Assembly (NCBI GenBank): GCA_903859415.1
Contig: CAIOMN010000090.1
Location: 1 to 43,517 of the forward strand
Reading direction: 5' to 3'
DNA from: an uncultured Methylococcaceae bacterium
Lineage (GTDB): Bacteria > Pseudomonadota > Gammaproteobacteria > Methylococcales > Methylomonadaceae
DNA length: 43,517 nucleotides
Below, one piece after another: positions 9,559 to 36,008 of the stretch. The notes beneath the pieces were generated by a model. It did not search any database. It saw only the letters and a program-made list of their open reading frames with translations, and had not been told where the DNA came from. Within the stretch, counting starts at the first letter, position 1; each line of letters begins with the position of its first letter. Position numbers and translations under genes: made by a program.

Positions 9559-10122
9559 TTGACTACTCAAAGTGTTTTATTTACCAAAGAACCTTTATGG
9601 CTGGAAAATCGCCAAGGCACACGCCATAAATTACCCATCAATGTTCAATCATGGACTTATGAGTCGGGCTCACTAACACAACGGTTGAGGAATTATTATG
9701 GTTCAGGTGTTGCTGTTAAGATCTTGTTTCATCGTTGGCAAACGCCTTTTCTAAGCGAGCGTCGTTTACTTAAGTTACCTGAACATCATTACAGTTTGAT
9801 ACGTGAGGTTTTGTTGCATGTGAATGATAAGCCATTGATATTGGCAAGAACTATTATCCCTTCAGCCACTATTAAAACCGCAAAAAGCAATTTATCCAAA
9901 TTAGGTACTCGTCCATTAGGGGAAGTTATTTTTTCTTATCCTAAGTTAGAGCGTATAGCGATGGATGTAACTTTAATTGATCTTCCGACTTGGACGCCAT
10001 CGATCATTGAGCAAGAATGGGTCATAAAGCCAATTTGGGGTCGTCGAACAATTTACGCGATTGAACAAAAGAGAATGCTGGTCAGTGAGTTCTTTTTGCC
10101 AGAGATAATACAGAGCTTATAG
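9559..10122 (+). CDS. ubiC: Chorismate pyruvate-lyase UbiC
   Basis: UbiC removes pyruvate from chorismate to give 4-hydroxybenzoate, the committed precursor of ubiquinone. The 187-aa protein has the family markers EPLWLENR near the start, WTYESGSLTQRLR, LIREVLLHV, LARTIIPSATI, LGTRPLGEVIF and a C-terminal RRTIYAI...LVSEFFLPEI. The arginine and glutamate that bind chorismate and the product fall in the REV, LGE and SEFFLP segments. The start is most likely TTG 9559: it is the first start codon after the recG stop, in the same frame, with GAGG at 9544-9547. Translation is therefore probably coupled to recG. A rare start codon would keep its level low. Confidence 0.88.
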   Translation: MTTQSVLFTKEPLWLENRQGTRHKLPINVQSWTYESGSLTQRLRNYYGSGVAVKILFHRWQTPFLSERRLLKLPEHHYSLIREVLLHVNDKPLILARTIIPSATIKTAKSNLSKLGTRPLGEVIFSYPKLERIAMDVTLIDLPTWTPSIIEQEWVIKPIWGRRTIYAIEQKRMLVSEFFLPEIIQSL

Positions 10123-10243
10123 GCTATCGACTTAGTTTTTGGGCCTGATTTGTTTAATACCCTGATAATGTCAGAGTAAGAGGCAGTGAGCATTAAGATA
10201 AATATTAAAATTAATTTACCTTGATAAGATAATTGCCCAAAAA

Positions 10244-10254
10244 TGTTATATAAT
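10244..10254 (+). promoter_or_regulatory. Extended -10 promoter of tRNA-Lys
   Basis: TGTTATATAAT combines an extended -10 TG with overlapping TATATA and TATAAT boxes, 13 bases before the tRNA and followed by a C-rich start region. TTGATA at 10221-10226 may serve as a distant -35 element, but the spacing is not ideal. Confidence 0.45.
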
Positions 10255-10267
10255 CCTCCAGATAAGA

Positions 10268-10343
10268 GGGGTGTTAGCTCAGTTGGTAGAGCAGTGGACT
10301 CTTAATCCATAGGTCCCGAGTTCGAGCCTCGGACGCCCCACCA
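10268..10343 (+). tRNA. tRNA-Lys, anticodon CTT
   Basis: The 76-base cloverleaf folds completely: acceptor GGGGTGT with ACGCCCC, discriminator A and encoded CCA (10341-10343); D-arm GCTC/GAGC; anticodon loop CTCTTAA with anticodon CTT; T-arm with TTCGAGC. It would decode AAG lysine codons. Its 3' part is repeated at 11677-11720, marking it as the target of an integrative element. Confidence 0.93.
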
Positions 10344-10433
10344 AATAAATCAAAGGCTTAGAGTAAAATCTAGGCCTTTTTTATTGTCTGAAAATAAAAA
10401 TGTCCCAATTTTGTTCCATTTCAAAATAAATCA
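10298..10433 (+). repeat. Direct repeat copy 1 (attL-like), tRNA 3' part plus terminator
   Basis: These 136 bases match 11677-11812 without gaps and with only about ten mismatches, at a constant offset of 1379. The repeat starts in the tRNA anticodon arm, covers the whole T-arm and acceptor 3' strand, the terminator and about 50 bases beyond. Here it is continuous with a complete tRNA. The following stretch, 10434-10710, is AT-rich and shows no supported gene. Confidence 0.85.
10352..10382 (+). terminator. Intrinsic terminator of tRNA-Lys
   Basis: AAAGGCTTAGA (10352-10362) pairs with TCTAGGCCTTT (10369-10379) with one G-T wobble around a 6-base loop, followed by a run of T. It begins 8 bases after the tRNA CCA end. 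A second version of this hairpin, with a perfect stem, is found in the downstream repeat at 11731-11761. Confidence 0.85.
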
Positions 10434-10710
10434 CCGCAACACTTGCCGACAATACAGGCATAAAAAGCTTATAACTTACTTAGCTTCCCTTAACACTGTA
10501 AAACAGCCTAGAATATTTGCCAGTTTTATCTTCTGTTTAGCTAAGTCTATTGTTAGTAATATCTTATAATATCAAAAAGATATTAAATTTAGCTGGAAAA
10601 ATTAGATGCTCTTTTTTGCTAAAACTGATCACTTTTCAACGCTCTTTTACACTCCTAGTTTTATAATATTTAGTTTGCGACTGTTTATGTCGCTTAAAAT
10701 ATATCAATGC

Positions 10711-11139
10711 TTAATCACGTGGGGTTGATTTTAAAGAGCTCTGGTGAAGCCCGACAATTCTTTGTGTGATTTGCTGATATAAAGCGGGCGGCAAAAAACC
10801 GAAGTCGTATTTATCGAGTGTTTTGGAGATGGGCCGTAAATCATATCCCGGCCATTGGAATTGATTAAAATCATCCAGAATTATCCATGAGCGCTCTGCA
10901 TCTAAACCTAAGTGTTGTTTTACCTTAGGTGGAATTTCAATGGCGGCATTAAGATTTTTAGGTGGTGTATGAGTAATGGGTGCGACAGTGACAATCTGTT
11001 CGGCCTCATTTTTTTCGACTACCAGTATTATGGCACAAGGTCTGTTCTTTAGGCCTTCTAATTGTCCGGCTTTATACTCGTTTTGCCATAAATAAGAATA
11101 TGAAATAACAAGGCCATTTTCAGGCTTAGGATAGGGCAT
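10711..11139 (-). CDS. PemK/MazF-like type II toxin
   Basis: A 142-aa protein of the PemK/MazF-like plasmid-maintenance toxin group, whose members are typically mRNA endoribonucleases. The order of conserved stretches fits: ISYSYLWQNEYKAGQLEG, then NRPCAIILVV, VAPITHTPP, AIEIPPKVKQHLGL, ERSWIILDDFNQF and WPGYDLRPI, ending in a basic tail. These strands match the SH3-like barrel of MazF proteins with a longer C-terminus. It begins 7 bases after the antitoxin stop, in the normal antitoxin-first order, so both are expressed from the operator-bearing promoter upstream of the antitoxin. Toxicity and cleavage sequence cannot be read from here. It is the only cargo of the tRNA-Lys-flanked element. 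Confidence 0.82.
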   Translation of the reverse strand: MPYPKPENGLVISYSYLWQNEYKAGQLEGLKNRPCAIILVVEKNEAEQIVTVAPITHTPPKNLNAAIEIPPKVKQHLGLDAERSWIILDDFNQFQWPGYDLRPISKTLDKYDFGFLPPALYQQITQRIVGLHQSSLKSTPRD

Positions 11140-11146
11140 TACAAAT

Positions 11147-11410
11147 CTAATCCATCAAACTATTTAAATGATCATGCTCGTCACTCATTTTTGCTTGGGC
11201 AATGGCTGCTATCGTGCCTGAAGGTAATTCAGTCACATCGTAAGCTTGTCTGGAGCGTGATTTAAGCAACAGATATTCGCTATATTCATGTTCAGACACA
11301 AAATAACCACTGGTTCGACCATGGCTGGTAATAGCAATAGACTGGCGTTGAACTTGCTCTTTGTATTGACCAAAATGTTTAACAAATTCACTAGCTGTTA
11401 CCTGTAGCAT
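11147..11410 (-). CDS. Phd/YefM-type antitoxin
   Basis: An 87-aa antitoxin-like protein. The N-terminal half (MLQVTASEFVKHFGQYKEQ, then ITSHGRTSGYFVSEHEYSEYL) matches Phd/YefM antitoxins, which dimerise, bind their own operator and use the C-terminus to wrap the toxin. I chose ATG 11410 because it has AGGA 9 bases upstream and begins at the conserved domain; a longer frame to 11473 would read through the operator palindrome. The C-terminal part (residues about 50-87) is acidic and probably unstructured, as expected for a toxin-binding tail. The toxin gene follows after 7 bases. Confidence 0.8.
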   Translation of the reverse strand: MLQVTASEFVKHFGQYKEQVQRQSIAITSHGRTSGYFVSEHEYSEYLLLKSRSRQAYDVTELPSGTIAAIAQAKMSDEHDHLNSLMD

Positions 11411-11429
11411 AATTGTATTTCCTATTATT

Positions 11430-11464
11430 TTCCGTAAATTATGCAATTTACGTAGTTTACGGAA
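11430..11464 (-). promoter_or_regulatory. Operator palindrome of the toxin-antitoxin operon
   Basis: TTCCGTAAA (11430-11438) and TTTACGGAA (11456-11464) are perfect inverted repeats. A third AATTTACGT half-site lies between them, so there are three CGTAAA-type half-sites in 35 bases, about 20 bases before the antitoxin start. This is the usual place for antitoxin or toxin-antitoxin complex binding. Confidence 0.7.
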
Positions 11465-11552
11465 AGTTGTCAATATGATGATTTATACTTATTGATGTCT
11501 CTCTGTTAGATTTGTATATCTTCTTTGTTTGGATCAATTACTAGAGAACGGC

Positions 11553-11635
11553 GTGTAGTAAATTTGTCACTACGCTACACTGGTATTGGCGTAGAGTGTA
11601 GTAAATATGTAGTAGGTTATGACTTGGCGAGTCAT
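11553..11635 (+). promoter_or_regulatory. Candidate integrase arm sites beside the right attachment repeat
   Basis: A 15-base direct repeat occurs twice: GTGTAGTAAATTTGT (11553-11567) and GTGTAGTAAATATGT (11596-11610). An inverted GTGTAG half lies at 11575-11580. A small hairpin, ATGACT/AGTCAT, sits at 11619-11635. They lie 67-124 bases inside the right repeat, where arm-type sites of tyrosine integrases are normally found. Confidence 0.5.
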
Positions 11636-11676
11636 GCAAGTTATTGATTATTAAAGTTGTATATTTTGAGTGCTGT

Positions 11677-11812
11677 ACTCTTAATCCATGGGTCCCGAGT
11701 TCGAGCCTCGGACGCCCCACCAAGTAAATCAAAGGCTTATAGTTAAATATAAGCCTTTTTTATTGTCTGAAAATAAAAGTGTCCCAATTTTGTCCCATTT
11801 CAAAATAAATCA
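11677..11812 (+). repeat. Direct repeat copy 2 (attR-like), truncated tRNA-Lys and terminator
   Basis: This copy repeats the tRNA from inside the anticodon arm through CCA (11677-11722), the terminator (11731-11761) and the following about 50 bases. The 5' part of the tRNA is missing, so it is not a functional tRNA. The terminator stem differs from copy 1 at paired positions that remain paired. Confidence 0.85.
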
Positions 11813-11982
11813 TCATAATAAACCACAATCCTTGCTAAAATTTCAGTCGAAAAAAGTCCACTAACAATCAGCATTGTTTTATTACTCCGAAAAATAAAAT
11901 ACAAATACCAAAAATTAATTTATAGTTCATAAGTTTGAAAAAAATAGGATAGTATTGCTTATTTATATTATTTGGAGAGGGT

Positions 11983-31416: not shown

Positions 31417-32916
31417 TTAATTTCTTGGACGCATGTGTGGAAATAACAAGACATCGCGTATTGAAGGCGCATCCGTAAAGAGCATCACTAACCGGTCAAT
31501 ACCAATGCCTTCCCCTGCAGTTGGCGGCATTCCATGTTCCAGGGCAACGATATAGTCAGCATCATAATGCATCGCTTCATCATCACCGGCTTCTTTTTCT
31601 TCAACCTGTTTTTGAAAACGGGCAGCCTGATCTTCAGCATCGTTTAATTCTGTAAAGCCATTGGCGATTTCACGCCCACCAACAAAGAATTCGAAGCGAT
31701 CCGTGACATGAGGGTCTTTGTCATTGCGTCTTGCCAAGGGTGAAACTTCAACCGGATAAGCCGTTATAAAGGTTGGGTTCATTAAGCGGCTTTCAACCGT
31801 TTTCTCAAAGATCTCAATTTGTATTTTACCTAAACCATAACTGTCTTTAACTGGGAGGTGCAAGCTCTCAGCGACTTTAACGGCTGCTTCACGGGTTTCA
31901 AGGTCACTGGCCGTTAGGTTGGGGTTAAAGTGTAGGATAGATTCATTGACGGTCATTCGGTCGAAGGGTTTACCAAAATCGTACTCTTCGCCTTGATAAT
32001 TAACCACGGTCTGACCAACCACTTCAACGGCAATGCCGCGCAACATGGCTTCAGTTAAATCCATGAGGTCTTGATATTCCGCATAAGCTTGATAAAACTC
32101 CAGCATGGTAAACTCTGGGTTGTGGCGCGTTGATAAGCCTTCATTACGGAAGTTGCGATTGATTTCAAAAACCCTTTCAAAACCACCAACCACAAGGCGC
32201 TTTAAATAAAGTTCAGGCGCAATACGCAAGAACATATCCATATCCAGCGCATTGTGATGCGTAGTAAAAGGTCTTGCAGTCGCACCGCCAGGAATGACTT
32301 GCATCATCGGTGTTTCTACTTCTAGAAACTGACGTTCTGTTAGAAACTGGCGAATATAGGCAACAATTTTAGAGCGGATTAGAAACGTATCACGAGAGTG
32401 CTCACTCATAATCAAATCCAGATAGCGTTGTCTGTATTTGATTTCTTGATCAGCAATGCCATGAAACTTTTCAGGCAATGGTCGTAGGGCTTTGGTTAAC
32501 AAACGAATGTCATTGACCTTAACACTTAATTCACCGGTTTGAGTGATAAACAAGACACCTTCAGCACCGATAATATCGCCAATATCCCATTTTTTAAATT
32601 GTTCATTATAAAAGCCTTCTGGCAGGGTATCACGGGTGATATACAACTGGATTTTTCCAGACATGTCCTGAATATGGGCAAAGCTGGCTTTTCCCATGAT
32701 GCGGCGGGTCATGATTCGTCCAGCCAGTTTTACGCGAATTGAGGCTGTTTCTAACTCTTCTTTAGTCTTTGCGCCATGCTCCGACAGCAGTTCACCTGCT
32801 AAAGCATCACGGCGAAAATCGGTAGGGAAGGCGATGCCTTCATTTTCACGCAGTTCATTTAGCTTGCTACGGCGTTGCTTAATTTGTTCTTGTTCGTCTT
32901 GTTGGATTTCTGACAT
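31417..32916 (-). CDS. lysS: Lysyl-tRNA synthetase, class II
   Basis: A 499-aa class IIb aminoacyl-tRNA synthetase charging tRNA-Lys with lysine. The N-terminal OB-fold anticodon domain (about 65-145) precedes a catalytic core with class II motif 1 around [11 protein letters not shown], motif 2 as [20 protein letters not shown] and motif 3 as [15 protein letters not shown]. Length matches E. coli LysS (505 aa). It is last in a minus-strand group with prfB; the two are normally adjacent in gammaproteobacteria. Here they are separated by the ATPase/nuclease-like cassette. It lies 55 bases after that cassette, so it may be transcribed through it or from its own promoter. No clear Shine-Dalgarno is visible before ATG 32916. 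Confidence 0.96.
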
Positions 32917-32971
32917 GGGGGAATAAGTAATGTGATTGAAAATTGTAGATTGTGAGAATCGATTTTTTTAC

Positions 32972-33535
32972 CTATAAAAACTGAGATAGATAATAAACGT
33001 TATCGTAATTTTGAATACAAACATCCAAATCTGGAGTTGAATTAAACTCAAGTTTTTTACGCTTTGATATTCCTTTATCCGGCGTTATTCTATCGAGCCT
33101 AAATAAAATGCCTTTATAGTGTAAATTATCGTTGTTCAAGTCTTGAAAATCAGAAGAGCATAATTTTATTCTATCGATGATAAATTTAAAAAATAACTTG
33201 CCGGCTCTCAGTTGTTTTAAATAATCTCCGATATTTTTTGATTTTAATTCAATTAGAAATATATAAACCTGATCACCTTTTTGATGTACTAAAATAAAAT
33301 CATTTTTAGTGCAAAGTCCTTTTATGGTAGGATTAAAGAATGGAAATAAAACATCGTTCTTTGATGTTTTATCCTTATCAAAGCTAAAACAAGAGGTATT
33401 ATTGAAATCCTTTATTTTAATATCAACAGATAAGCTCTCTTTTTCTTCTTTAAGGCGTAAAGTGTTTTTGTCTACAAGTGGGAAATGAAAATCTTCGGAA
33501 ATGATTACATTTAATGAATTAGGTAGCGACCGCAT
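32972..33535 (-). CDS. Small PD-(D/E)XK-like protein, partner of the upstream ATPase
   Basis: A 187-aa protein of unknown family. Residues 74-110 look like a PD-(D/E)XK nuclease core: Asp79 in KNDFILVH, then a beta strand leading to Glu96-Leu-Lys98 in FLIELKSKN, then a helix with Gln108 in LKQLRAGKL. The order Asp-x16-Glu-x-Lys and downstream Gln fits many such nucleases, but without alignment this is a fold inference. The flanking parts are Lys-, Asn- and Asp-rich. Its ATG overlaps the ATPase stop by one base (TAATG), so the pair is translationally coupled. The DNA is strikingly AT-rich compared with lysS and prfB on either side, suggesting recent acquisition. It could alternatively be an inactive partner. 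Confidence 0.7.
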   Translation of the reverse strand: MRSLPNSLNVIISEDFHFPLVDKNTLRLKEEKESLSVDIKIKDFNNTSCFSFDKDKTSKNDVLFPFFNPTIKGLCTKNDFILVHQKGDQVYIFLIELKSKNIGDYLKQLRAGKLFFKFIIDRIKLCSSDFQDLNNDNLHYKGILFRLDRITPDKGISKRKKLEFNSTPDLDVCIQNYDNVYYLSQFL

Positions 33536-34893
33536 TAATTATTTAACTCCTTTGCATCCTGCATAGCATAATATATCTCATTCGATGATTTATTGAGATC
33601 ATTAATGACAGTGTCAAAAGTTTCAGCAATAACCCCTTCTTCTTCATCCATTATCATCGGTATAATTTTTTTATTATCAAATAAATAGGCAGAGACGTGC
33701 CTAATTGCTAATAATTCATTGTCCTGATAATCGTATTTTTTTTGTAAGTCTGTAGCACCAACGAAATCTTTTTTTAGCATGATTAAATTATTGAGTTCGC
33801 GCACAAAATAATCACTGTGGGTACTAACAATAACCTTTAGACCCGCATTAACCAATTGAGCTAAAATTCGTGCTACCTGTCGTTGATTATCAGGATGTAA
33901 ATTAAGCTCAGGCTCATCAATCATTAAGCAATCGCCTTCCTCGGCAAGATGCTCTAAATAAAAAACTAATCCAAAAAGAGTTTTAACCGTTGATGAGCTA
34001 AAATGCAGAGGTAGTTTTTTATGGTTGCTTCTATAGGGTAAAAAGAAAACATTACCTTGACCATCTACTTCATATTTACCACTTAAAATCTTTTTTTGTA
34101 TGTTTTGTGCATACTCTCGATAAATACTTTTTTGTTTTTGTGTGCGTCCAATTTTATTAAGCGTCTGAATATAATCTTGAACCGGATCAGCATAACGTGA
34201 GTCTAAAATATCCTTTAAGAGCTCCATGGGATCGACTTTATCTTTTTGTGCATGTTGCAATAATAAATTACGGGTGCTGGATAATTCCTTATAAAATAAA
34301 TTTAGTCCTGCTCTCTCTGAAGGTAGTAAAAAAGAGTCTTTAGATAAGCAAGTAAAGACGATACTCAGTAATCCTTTTGAAATAAAGTCTTCTAGCAAAC
34401 CATCGGGAATTTCAGTATTACGCAAGGTTAGTTGAATGGTTTCATTGTTTTCTTCTTTTTCTAACAATAGCGACCAATCCTTGTTTTTTCCTAGAGAGAG
34501 CATTCGCTTGGCCGCTTTTTTAAATGCTCGTTCTTGTAAGCTATCATTATTAAAATCTAAATGTATTTTGGTATTAGCAAAGTCATCATCGGTTACACCA
34601 AATAAGCGAGGTAAATAACGCTTAAAGTCTCGCTCAATATGTTTAATCATTTCCTTTTGGTGTAAATTAAGGATATCACTGACTGTTAGGTGATGTGTTC
34701 CATTTTTTTTAAGAAGAGTTACTACTTCCTTAACAAAATTGAAACGAATATCAAATTCTTTTTCTAATAACCCATAAAGTGAGTACATAGCATAAGTCTT
34801 CCCTGAATTATTTTTACCACAAAATAGGGTAAAATCATTGAGTTCAATGCTACCGATATCAATGCCACCCAAATTTTCAAATTCAATTTTCAT
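33535..34893 (-). CDS. AAA/ABC-type ATPase (OLD-like, no TOPRIM domain) of a candidate defence pair
   Basis: A 452-aa ABC-fold ATPase of the AAA_15/AAA_21 (OLD/RecF-like) group. Walker A is GKNNSGKT (26-33), Walker B DCLMIDEPELNLHP with Asp326-Glu327, the signature helix is in HFSSSTVKTLFGL, and the switch histidine is His359 in VSTHSDYF. The central part (60-290) is the usual insertion of helices. After the core only about 90 residues remain, without a TOPRIM nuclease. ATG 34893 starts at the conserved MKIEFENLGGI strand; a GTG at 34920 overlaps prfB. It lies 16 bases after prfB and is coupled to the nuclease-like gene. Such ATPase-effector pairs are common in phage defence. Confidence 0.82.
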   Translation of the reverse strand: MKIEFENLGGIDIGSIELNDFTLFCGKNNSGKTYAMYSLYGLLEKEFDIRFNFVKEVVTLLKKNGTHHLTVSDILNLHQKEMIKHIERDFKRYLPRLFGVTDDDFANTKIHLDFNNDSLQERAFKKAAKRMLSLGKNKDWSLLLEKEENNETIQLTLRNTEIPDGLLEDFISKGLLSIVFTCLSKDSFLLPSERAGLNLFYKELSSTRNLLLQHAQKDKVDPMELLKDILDSRYADPVQDYIQTLNKIGRTQKQKSIYREYAQNIQKKILSGKYEVDGQGNVFFLPYRSNHKKLPLHFSSSTVKTLFGLVFYLEHLAEEGDCLMIDEPELNLHPDNQRQVARILAQLVNAGLKVIVSTHSDYFVRELNNLIMLKKDFVGATDLQKKYDYQDNELLAIRHVSAYLFDNKKIIPMIMDEEEGVIAETFDTVINDLNKSSNEIYYAMQDAKELNN

Positions 34894-34909
34894 TTTGTTA
34901 CTCTGTGAA

Positions 34910-36008
34910 TTACAGTCCACTCTTTAAGCTGGCTTCAATGAATTGATCCAGGTCTCCATCTAATACCGCTTGGGTATTACCTGTTTCTACACCTGTGCGT
35001 AAATCTTTAATACGGGATTGATCTAATACATAAGAGCGAATTTGACTGCCCCAGCCGATGTCGGATTTTGTGTCTTCCAATGCTTGAGCCGTTTCACTGC
35101 GTTTACGCATTTCAAGTTCATACAATTTAGCTTTTAACTGCTTCATTGCGGTATCACGGTTCTTGTGCTGTGAACGGTCACTTTGACATTGCACCACAAT
35201 ACCGGTTGGATTATGGGTCATTCGCACAGCTGATTCCGTTTTATTGATGTGCTGACCACCGGCACCACTGGCACGATAGACATCAACACGAATATCGGCT
35301 GGATTGAGATCAATGTCGATATCATCATTAATTTCAGGTGAGACAAACACGGAAGCAAAAGAAGTATGACGACGATTGCCGGAGTCAAACGGCGATTTTC
35401 TAACCAGTCGATGCACACCGGTTTCAGTTCTTAACCAACCAAAAGCATACTCGCCTTCAAATCTAATGGTGGCGCTTTTAATACCCGCGACATCACCTTG
35501 AGATTCTTCAATCAGTTCAGTTTTAAAGCCTTTGCGCTCACCCCAGCGTAAAAACATCCGTTCTATGATAGAAGCCCAGTCTTGCGCCTCAGTTCCACCA
35601 GAGCCGGATTGAATATCTAAGAAGGCATTGTTAGGATCCATTTCACCTGAAAACATCCGGCGGAATTCAAGAGCTGCGACTCTTTTCTCAAAGTGCGCTA
35701 AATCATCAACGACAGTATCAATAGTTTCTTCATCTTCTTCCTCAACGGCCATCAGCAATAATTCTTCGGCATCGGTTAAACCACGCTCTAATTCAGTGAT
35801 GGTATTAACGATGACTTCTAATTGACCGCGCTCTTTCCCTAAGGCTTGGGCCTGTTCAGGGTTATCCCAAATTTTAGGGTTTTCTAATTCGCGTAAGACT
35901 TCGACCAAGCGTTCGCTTTTAATATCAAAGTCAAAGATACCCCCTGAGTGAGTTACCACGGCTTTTCAGGTCGGCTATTTTATTTTTAATCGGATTTATT
36001 TCTTGCAT
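34910..36008 (-). CDS. prfB: Peptide chain release factor 2, with programmed +1 frameshift
   Basis: RF2 recognises UGA and UAA stop codons and triggers peptide release. The coding region begins at ATG 36008 ([18 protein letters not shown]...) and runs to CTT, followed by an in-frame TGA at 35933-35931. A +1 shift (CTTTGAC) continues as DFDIKSERL and on to the end at 34910. The GGQ peptide-release motif ([15 protein letters not shown]) is present. The codon-recognition tripeptide of RF2, SPF, is seen in [12 protein letters not shown]. Total length about 365 residues, normal. The site autoregulates RF2 level. The reading frame without the shift (MVTHSGGIF...) is an artefact. Confidence 0.96.
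35930..35945 (-). promoter_or_regulatory. prfB +1 programmed frameshift site
   Basis: The minus strand reads AGGGGGTATCTTTGAC. AGGGGG is the internal Shine-Dalgarno-like element, CTT the slippery codon, TGA the stop and C the following base. It is identical to the E. coli site. It senses low RF2 because slow termination at TGA allows the shift. Confidence 0.93.

Follow-up and report, generated by a model that had tools for sequence, protein, structure and literature searches.

In the genome of an uncultured Methylococcaceae bacterium, two overlapping genes lying between prfB and lysS constitute a divergent member of PD-T4-4, a system type that has already been described; the membership of the pair in this type is almost certain. 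As judged from the sequences of the pair and its relatives, a PD-T4-4-type phage defence composed of an ATPase and a nuclease is highly probable (probability about 0.85). The junction between prfB and lysS appears reasonably likely to be an undocumented swap-in cargo slot within a housekeeping operon, where compact defence and toxin-antitoxin (TA) modules, oriented with host transcription, are exchanged without an integrase, probably through homologous recombination via the flanks, with the junction between ribD and ribE as a second, less used slot.

Layout and assignment of the gene pair

The window, by which the whole analysed stretch of 43,517 nucleotides is meant, carries the features collected in Table 1, where the first gene of the pair is designated A and the second B. 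The initial annotation had described two coupled minus-strand genes between prfB and lysS with an overlap of one base, and this coupling was confirmed as TAATG: at the A/B junction, which reads ...AATAATTAATGCGG, the TAA stop and the ATG start have one base in common. An alternative start of A, GTG at 34920, would give a protein of 461 aa and overlaps prfB, whose end is at 34910.

Table 1. Gene pair, its edges and its flanking genes, in positions of the window
Feature	Position	Strand	Detail or basis
B, PD-T4-4 component B	32972..33535	-	187 aa; putative PD-(D/E)XK nuclease
A, PD-T4-4 component A, OLD-family ABC ATPase	33535..34893	-	452 aa from ATG 34893
TAATG stop/start overlap coupling A to B	33533..33537	-	sequence
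Cargo left edge, 16 nt from prfB stop to A start	34894..34909	-	sequence; G675 comparison
Cargo right edge, 55 nt from B stop to lysS start	32917..32971	-	sequence; G675 comparison
prfB (RF2), upstream flank of the slot	34910..36008	-	ORF
lysS, downstream flank of the slot	31417..32916	-	ORF; directly behind prfB in empty-site relatives

The GC content of the pair region amounts to 28-34% (500-nt windows, 33000 to 34999), as compared with 42-45% over most of prfB and lysS, and GC3 is 0.26 and 0.25 in A and B versus 0.37 and 0.40 in prfB and lysS. Together with the finding that the junction is empty in most of the relatives examined, these values bear out the earlier description of an AT-rich cassette. 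Direct repeats that could mark an insertion were only short and scattered in the window, no tRNA marks an insertion (the sole tRNA of the window is at 10268), and the promoter and terminator scans stayed at chance level (15 vs 13.1 expected and 2 vs 3.0, respectively). A near-identical pair, with 99.6% identity in A and 98.4% in B, is found in one further genome (G673), also between prfB and lysS. Within prfB, a motif of the RF2 programmed-frameshift type, AGGGGG...CTTTGAC, occurs at about 35930-35945, which we take to be the RF2 frameshift site; slot cargo behind prfB thus lies downstream of a self-regulated gene (frameshift site within window positions 35930-36008). The pair's own genome (G000) contains 21 AAA_15 matches, and this richness in AAA_15-type ATPases suggests several defence loci.

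The assignment to PD-T4-4, made from component-model matches and gene adjacency, rests on the best PADLOC models of both proteins. For A, this was PDLC04033 PD-T4-4_A (1.8e-141), with residues 1-445 aligned on positions 1-459 of 460, and for B it was PDLC04037 PD-T4-4_B (1.9e-42), with residues 4-187 on positions 5-186 of 190. The gene arrangement is likewise that of PD-T4-4, with A first, B adjoining, and both in one operon with a one-base overlap. Because the PADLOC models of PD-T4-4 fit both proteins nearly end to end, the suggestion of an undescribed two-gene type is rejected. The PDLC04037 branch, to which B belongs, is rare, being present in 3 of 274 genomes of the class.

PD-T4-4 is reported to belong to a set of ten systems that emerged from selection against T4 in E. 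coli and were validated against this phage (Vassallo 2022, PMC9519451), and a review assigns PD(D/E)XK and P-loop domains to it (PMC10952713). Both PD-T4-4 and the related PDC-M47 show the same gene order as the present pair, in which an OLD-type ABC ATPase is followed by a small PD-(D/E)XK-like protein. The setting differs, as the PD-T4-4 of E. coli is described in an ICE-like element, whereas the present pair occupies a housekeeping operon with no mobile gene recognised beside it.

The pair is not Septu, PARIS or Gabija, the needed partner or domain being absent in each case, which agrees with the exclusion of classical OLD and the doubts about Septu and PARIS in the initial annotation. An AAA_15/OLD-type ATPase is common to A and to Septu, Gabija and classical OLD. 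B gives no HNH match in Pfam or PADLOC, so that there is no PtuB-type partner as in Septu; A, with 452 aa, an AAA_15 domain reaching to residue 364, no TOPRIM match in Pfam and no helicase partner adjoining, does not fit Gabija or classical OLD. The AriB protein of PARIS is a DUF4435 protein, and PARIS was rejected since B has no TOPRIM/DUF4435 match and is therefore no AriB-type partner. The likeness to PARIS consists in a two-gene set of OLD-ABC ATPase and effector and in a weak but detectable similarity between A and AriA, while the difference lies in AriB being described as a TOPRIM protein (PMC12839542), for which B shows no such match.

Conservation and surroundings of the two components

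A matches the Pfam family AAA_15 (1e-28). In 30 aligned sequences, made up of 29 loci with a whole A and the window, with partial or interrupted copies excluded, the residues K32 (Walker A), R194, S300 (signature), D326/E327 (Walker B) and H359 (H-loop) are invariant. The reading of A as an OLD-like ATPase without TOPRIM is borne out by the AAA_15 match, the retained ABC motif residues and the lack of a TOPRIM match. By sequence, the solved chains closest to A are those of UvrA, AriA and other ABC ATPases, all weak (best 4.6e-5), and A is approximately 29-36% identical to most of the homologues compared.

The core of B, D79-x16-E96-L-K98, had been picked out in the initial annotation, and the alignment of 28 homologues upholds that choice, with E30, D55, D79 and K98 invariant and position 96 occupied by either E or D. 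All of the catalytic residues proposed there (D79, E96 and K98 of B, E327 of A) are present. Apart from the G673 copy, B is 16-22% identical to all compared homologues. When the 28 B sequences were compared with the B models of PADLOC, 25 matched PDC-M47B PDLC04668, while 21 matched PD-T4-4_B PDLC04034 and 21 PDLC04035. A Pfam search of the window's B yielded no match, nor did a search of the B profile against PDB sequences; single homologues match DUF2726, NERD and HSDR_N_2 weakly (0.02-0.1), and eleven further weak single Pfam matches of B homologues are most likely due to chance.

Profile comparison with hhalign gave 81% for B against HSDR_N_2 in the D...ExK register (nine domains, from 9 of 15 listed loci uncut by a contig end, of 41 matches), 1% against Mrr_cat (ten domains, from 10 of 19 listed loci uncut by a contig end, of 30 matches) and 0.15% against an unrelated ribE profile; HSDR_N_2 and Mrr_cat, two families of the PD-(D/E)XK fold, reach only 48% against each other. 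A structure model of B was rejected as evidence, with a pLDDT of 38 from a two-sequence alignment. The proposal of a nuclease-like partner is supported by the conserved D...(E/D)xK core and by the likeness to HSDR_N_2, and not by Mrr_cat or by the unusable model. On sequence grounds, the putative nuclease nature of B therefore has good support from its motif and from a single profile alignment, though none from the fold.

Homologues of A were found in 14 of 398 genomes of the phylum (E up to 1e-30); within the genus, 10 of 35 genomes have one (E up to 1e-20). Both counts include the own genome. Among 31 distinct A loci (33 examined minus two duplicates, window included), a B-like gene of 176-224 aa lies directly behind A in 28. 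A and B can be regarded as more than chance open reading frames, because A matches AAA_15 and a B-like gene follows it in these 28 loci. The three loci without a normal B are G000 C58, where the contig end truncates B, G673 C88, where a 78-aa remnant is left, and L041, where an unrelated ORF follows and A itself is only a weak match. Matches to A are present in 36 plasmid records, and all four of the loci opened (E. coli, E. albertii, Klebsiella and Annamia) have A followed directly by B. The window's B found no match in plasmid and phage records at E 1e-3, and searches of viral contigs, using both proteins of the window together with three B homologues, brought up no relative.

Several of these loci show peculiarities of their own. 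The own genome carries a second divergent PD-T4-4 A, 30% identical, at G000 C58:130128-131528 (L072), whose B is cut by the contig end. In G673 C88 (L110, 9232-10840), B is reduced to 78 aa without the catalytic core and A is still open. In G136 (L071, about 10063-11825), an A homologue is broken near Walker B by about 1.76 kb; the insert contains no Rfam family, and a long ORF across it no Pfam family.

The surroundings of related pairs agree with the defence context postulated at the outset. In G661, brxC and pglX of a BREX locus enclose one such pair, and in G674 another adjoins a type I restriction-modification (RM) system (REase 4e-268). The pair in G000 C58 lies behind a gene in which GmrSD_N and GmrSD_C domains were found by scanning, and what appears by eye to be the same 571-aa GmrSD-type gene precedes the pair in G663, G673 and G677; in G673, Cas3 and Cse1 follow about 3 and 6 kb beyond this GmrSD-associated pair. 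Other defence cargo, described below, is found at the same site as the window's pair. OLD-ABC plus PD-(D/E)XK modules within BREX have already been published (PMC12839542). Purely vertical inheritance without linkage to defence islands, a pattern previously named as counting against the defence proposal, was found neither with respect to inheritance nor with respect to linkage.

The prfB-lysS junction and its cargo

Of 35 genomes in the genus, prfB was matched in 29, one of them cut at a contig end, and 6 had no prfB match, leaving 28 usable genomes. The gap between prfB and lysS measures 31-181 nt in 19 of these and 0.88-2.0 kb in the other 9. In other genera of the family, more than 500 nt separate the two genes in 11 of 18 genomes, giving 20 filled junctions among 46 genomes of the family. 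In the 11 genomes inspected from other families of the order (of 42; loci were given for 30 of the 61 genomes examined), prfB and lysS lie 7-180 nt apart. The closest genome with an empty site, G675, has a 44-nt spacer, with prfB and lysS proteins 98.6% and 97.2% identical to those of the window, and the likeness to this empty site fades out no more than a few bases from the prfB stop.

The contents of the slot are diverse. Within the genus, it holds PD-T4-4 (G000, G673), a type II RM system (G666), RelB/YafQ (G669) and HEC-01 (G661), and a pair of 138 and 156 aa occurs alone in G677, G682 and G685 and with DUF4326 and PIN genes in G671. In other genera, HEC-01 recurs in G742 (scanned) and in G716 (85% and 79% identical to the two proteins of G661), an HEC-04-like ATPase with RelB and a YafQ-like gene occupies G700, and DUF433/DUF5615 is found in G720 (scanned), in G744 and G740 (with the first gene 76-78% identical) and in G708 (by eye). 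DUF2442 with NYN fills G724, one PilZ gene fills G748, and the 138/156-aa pair reappears in G712, where the slot has undetermined bases, and in G732, where lysS is absent from the 4 kb behind prfB. Overall, six genomes, belonging to three genera, carry overlapping genes of 138 aa and 139-156 aa at prfB-lysS (L077 1054-1919, L078, L079, L081, L181, L183). This pair has no Pfam match; its 138-aa protein, presumably HEPN-like, matches PADLOC PDC-M28A weakly (1.4e-5), and it is a candidate for an undescribed TA or defence pair.

The listed cargo genes in the nine filled slots of the genus are co-directional with prfB and lysS. The slot is richer in AT than both flanks in all 12 loci measured of the 20 filled, and no integrase or transposase was recognised among the listed slot ORFs, part of which were scanned against libraries. 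No description of a prfB-lysS slot was found among open-licence papers; the one paper retrieved for this gene pair, on Buchnera, treats another subject to judge by its title.

A rival reading is that the pair is a decayed or non-defence passenger, kept only because the site tolerates insertions. The occurrence of the same pair at prfB-lysS in only two closely related genomes (G000 and G673) and the filling of the slot in G748 by a non-defence PilZ gene speak in its favour; both frames, however, are open with the tested motif residues intact, related pairs reside in defence islands, and the other 19 of the 20 filled slots hold defence, TA or unassigned gene sets, making a passenger very improbable. 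From these sequence comparisons, a defence function of the pair is considered highly probable.

A limited set of other junctions served as controls. In an automatic count, which covered 27 of the 28 usable genomes of the genus, prfB-lysS exceeded 500 nt in 9 of 27, compared with 0 of 24 for lysS-gloB. Upstream of prfB, the junction passed this length in 4 of 19, and in one of these the space holds two normal-sized ORFs. The figures for four more junctions are 1 of 18, 2 of 10, 3 of 10 and 0 of 10, and for another, sparsely sampled one 4 of 7, where the space is taken by one gene of 408-453 aa. Among the four junctions for which at least 18 genomes were sampled, prfB-lysS is filled most frequently, but the others vary too. 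Fisher tests gave p 0.002 for 9/27 vs 0/24 and p 0.005 for 20/46 vs 0/11, values that are only indicative because genomes of one genus are not independent. Several of the filled sites, namely those with the 138/156-aa pair and with DUF433/DUF5615, may be inherited from common ancestors.

At ribD-ribE (30 loci given of 32 matches), upstream sequence sufficed in 29 genomes, 4 of which have a gap of more than 1 kb. The cargo there (L113, L115, L151/L192, L155/L191) includes PD-T4-4 in G669 and G676, DarT/DarG in G666, and a PIN fragment with a T5orf172/MUG113-type protein in G659.

Proposed action and significance

For the possible mode of action, WonAB from the WASA-1 prophage of Vibrio cholerae is an informative relative, called similar to PD-T4-4 by its authors (PMC12137116), a relation also given in PMC12409358. 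It shares with the present pair an OLD-type ABC ATPase with Walker A, signature, Walker B, H-loop and conserved Arg, as well as a partner with a PD-(D/E)XK motif, and the OLD-ABC ATPase plus novel REase class cited in PMC12137116 is close in the same way. By published description, WonB has 16.1 kDa, as against the 187 aa of B, and according to the authors WonAB differs from PD-T4-4 in ATPase inserts and C-terminal extensions (PMC12137116). In that report, the ABC motif residues and WonB K71 are essential, and the residues needed in WonA are K34, R182, E300 and H333 (PMC12137116); we infer that these four are one-to-one counterparts of the motif residues of A.

Most likely, A would act as an ATP-binding dimer, sensing a cue of the infection and keeping the small nuclease B under its control. 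Activation would need ATP hydrolysis, whereupon the putative centre D79/E96/K98 of B would cut nucleic acid, and infection would stop, probably with the loss of the infected cell. Should B act like WonB, tRNA or rRNA would be the target and translation would halt; a DNA target is also possible. The pair was presumably gained horizontally and seated in the prfB-lysS cargo slot, where it is probably expressed by read-through of the prfB transcript, and slot contents would be exchanged by homologous recombination through prfB and lysS. That the pair is an ATPase-controlled nuclease is probable; the narrower claim that its action is abortive and its target RNA is tentative, at somewhat less than even odds. 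The trigger and target may differ from those of known relatives, because A is about 29-36% identical to most homologues and B 16-22% to all but the G673 copy.

Two variants within the PD-T4-4 reading have to be considered in the light of WonAB. One is direct immunity, in which B would be a DNase that cuts phage DNA, e.g., replication intermediates, under the control of A, and the cell survives. It draws on the resemblance of the B profile to the HSDR_N_2 nuclease core and is a serious rival because 7 of the 11 Vassallo systems with putative DNA-binding or cleavage parts are reported as not abortive (PMC9519451); WonAB, on the other hand, is described as abortive, arresting translation with DNA intact (PMC12137116), and the variant is accordingly rated as possible at roughly one chance in three. 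The other resembles a TA system, with A sequestering B and releasing it on infection. Overlapping operons are common in TA pairs, TA pairs occupy the same slot in relatives, and the PDB sequence relatives of A include AriA, labelled an antitoxin (8v45, 1e-4). This variant is nevertheless unlikely, as WonB is reported to be toxic only when ATPase-competent WonA is present, by which the authors rule out simple sequestration (PMC12137116).

With the pair read as a PD-T4-4 member, a type of ATPase-nuclease defence that is still poorly understood is extended to methanotrophs, and its divergent B is offered for work on structure and target. The slot matters more than the pair. It offers a small and sharply bounded place in which to seek new compact defence systems, which could escape searches aimed at defence islands or prophage hotspots, and a case in which an essential operon may supply the promoter for defence genes. 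If the cargo slot is real, unassigned pairs at this site, the 138/156-aa pair for example, would become candidates for defence systems, and defence would spread by hitch-hiking in operons rather than by mobile elements.
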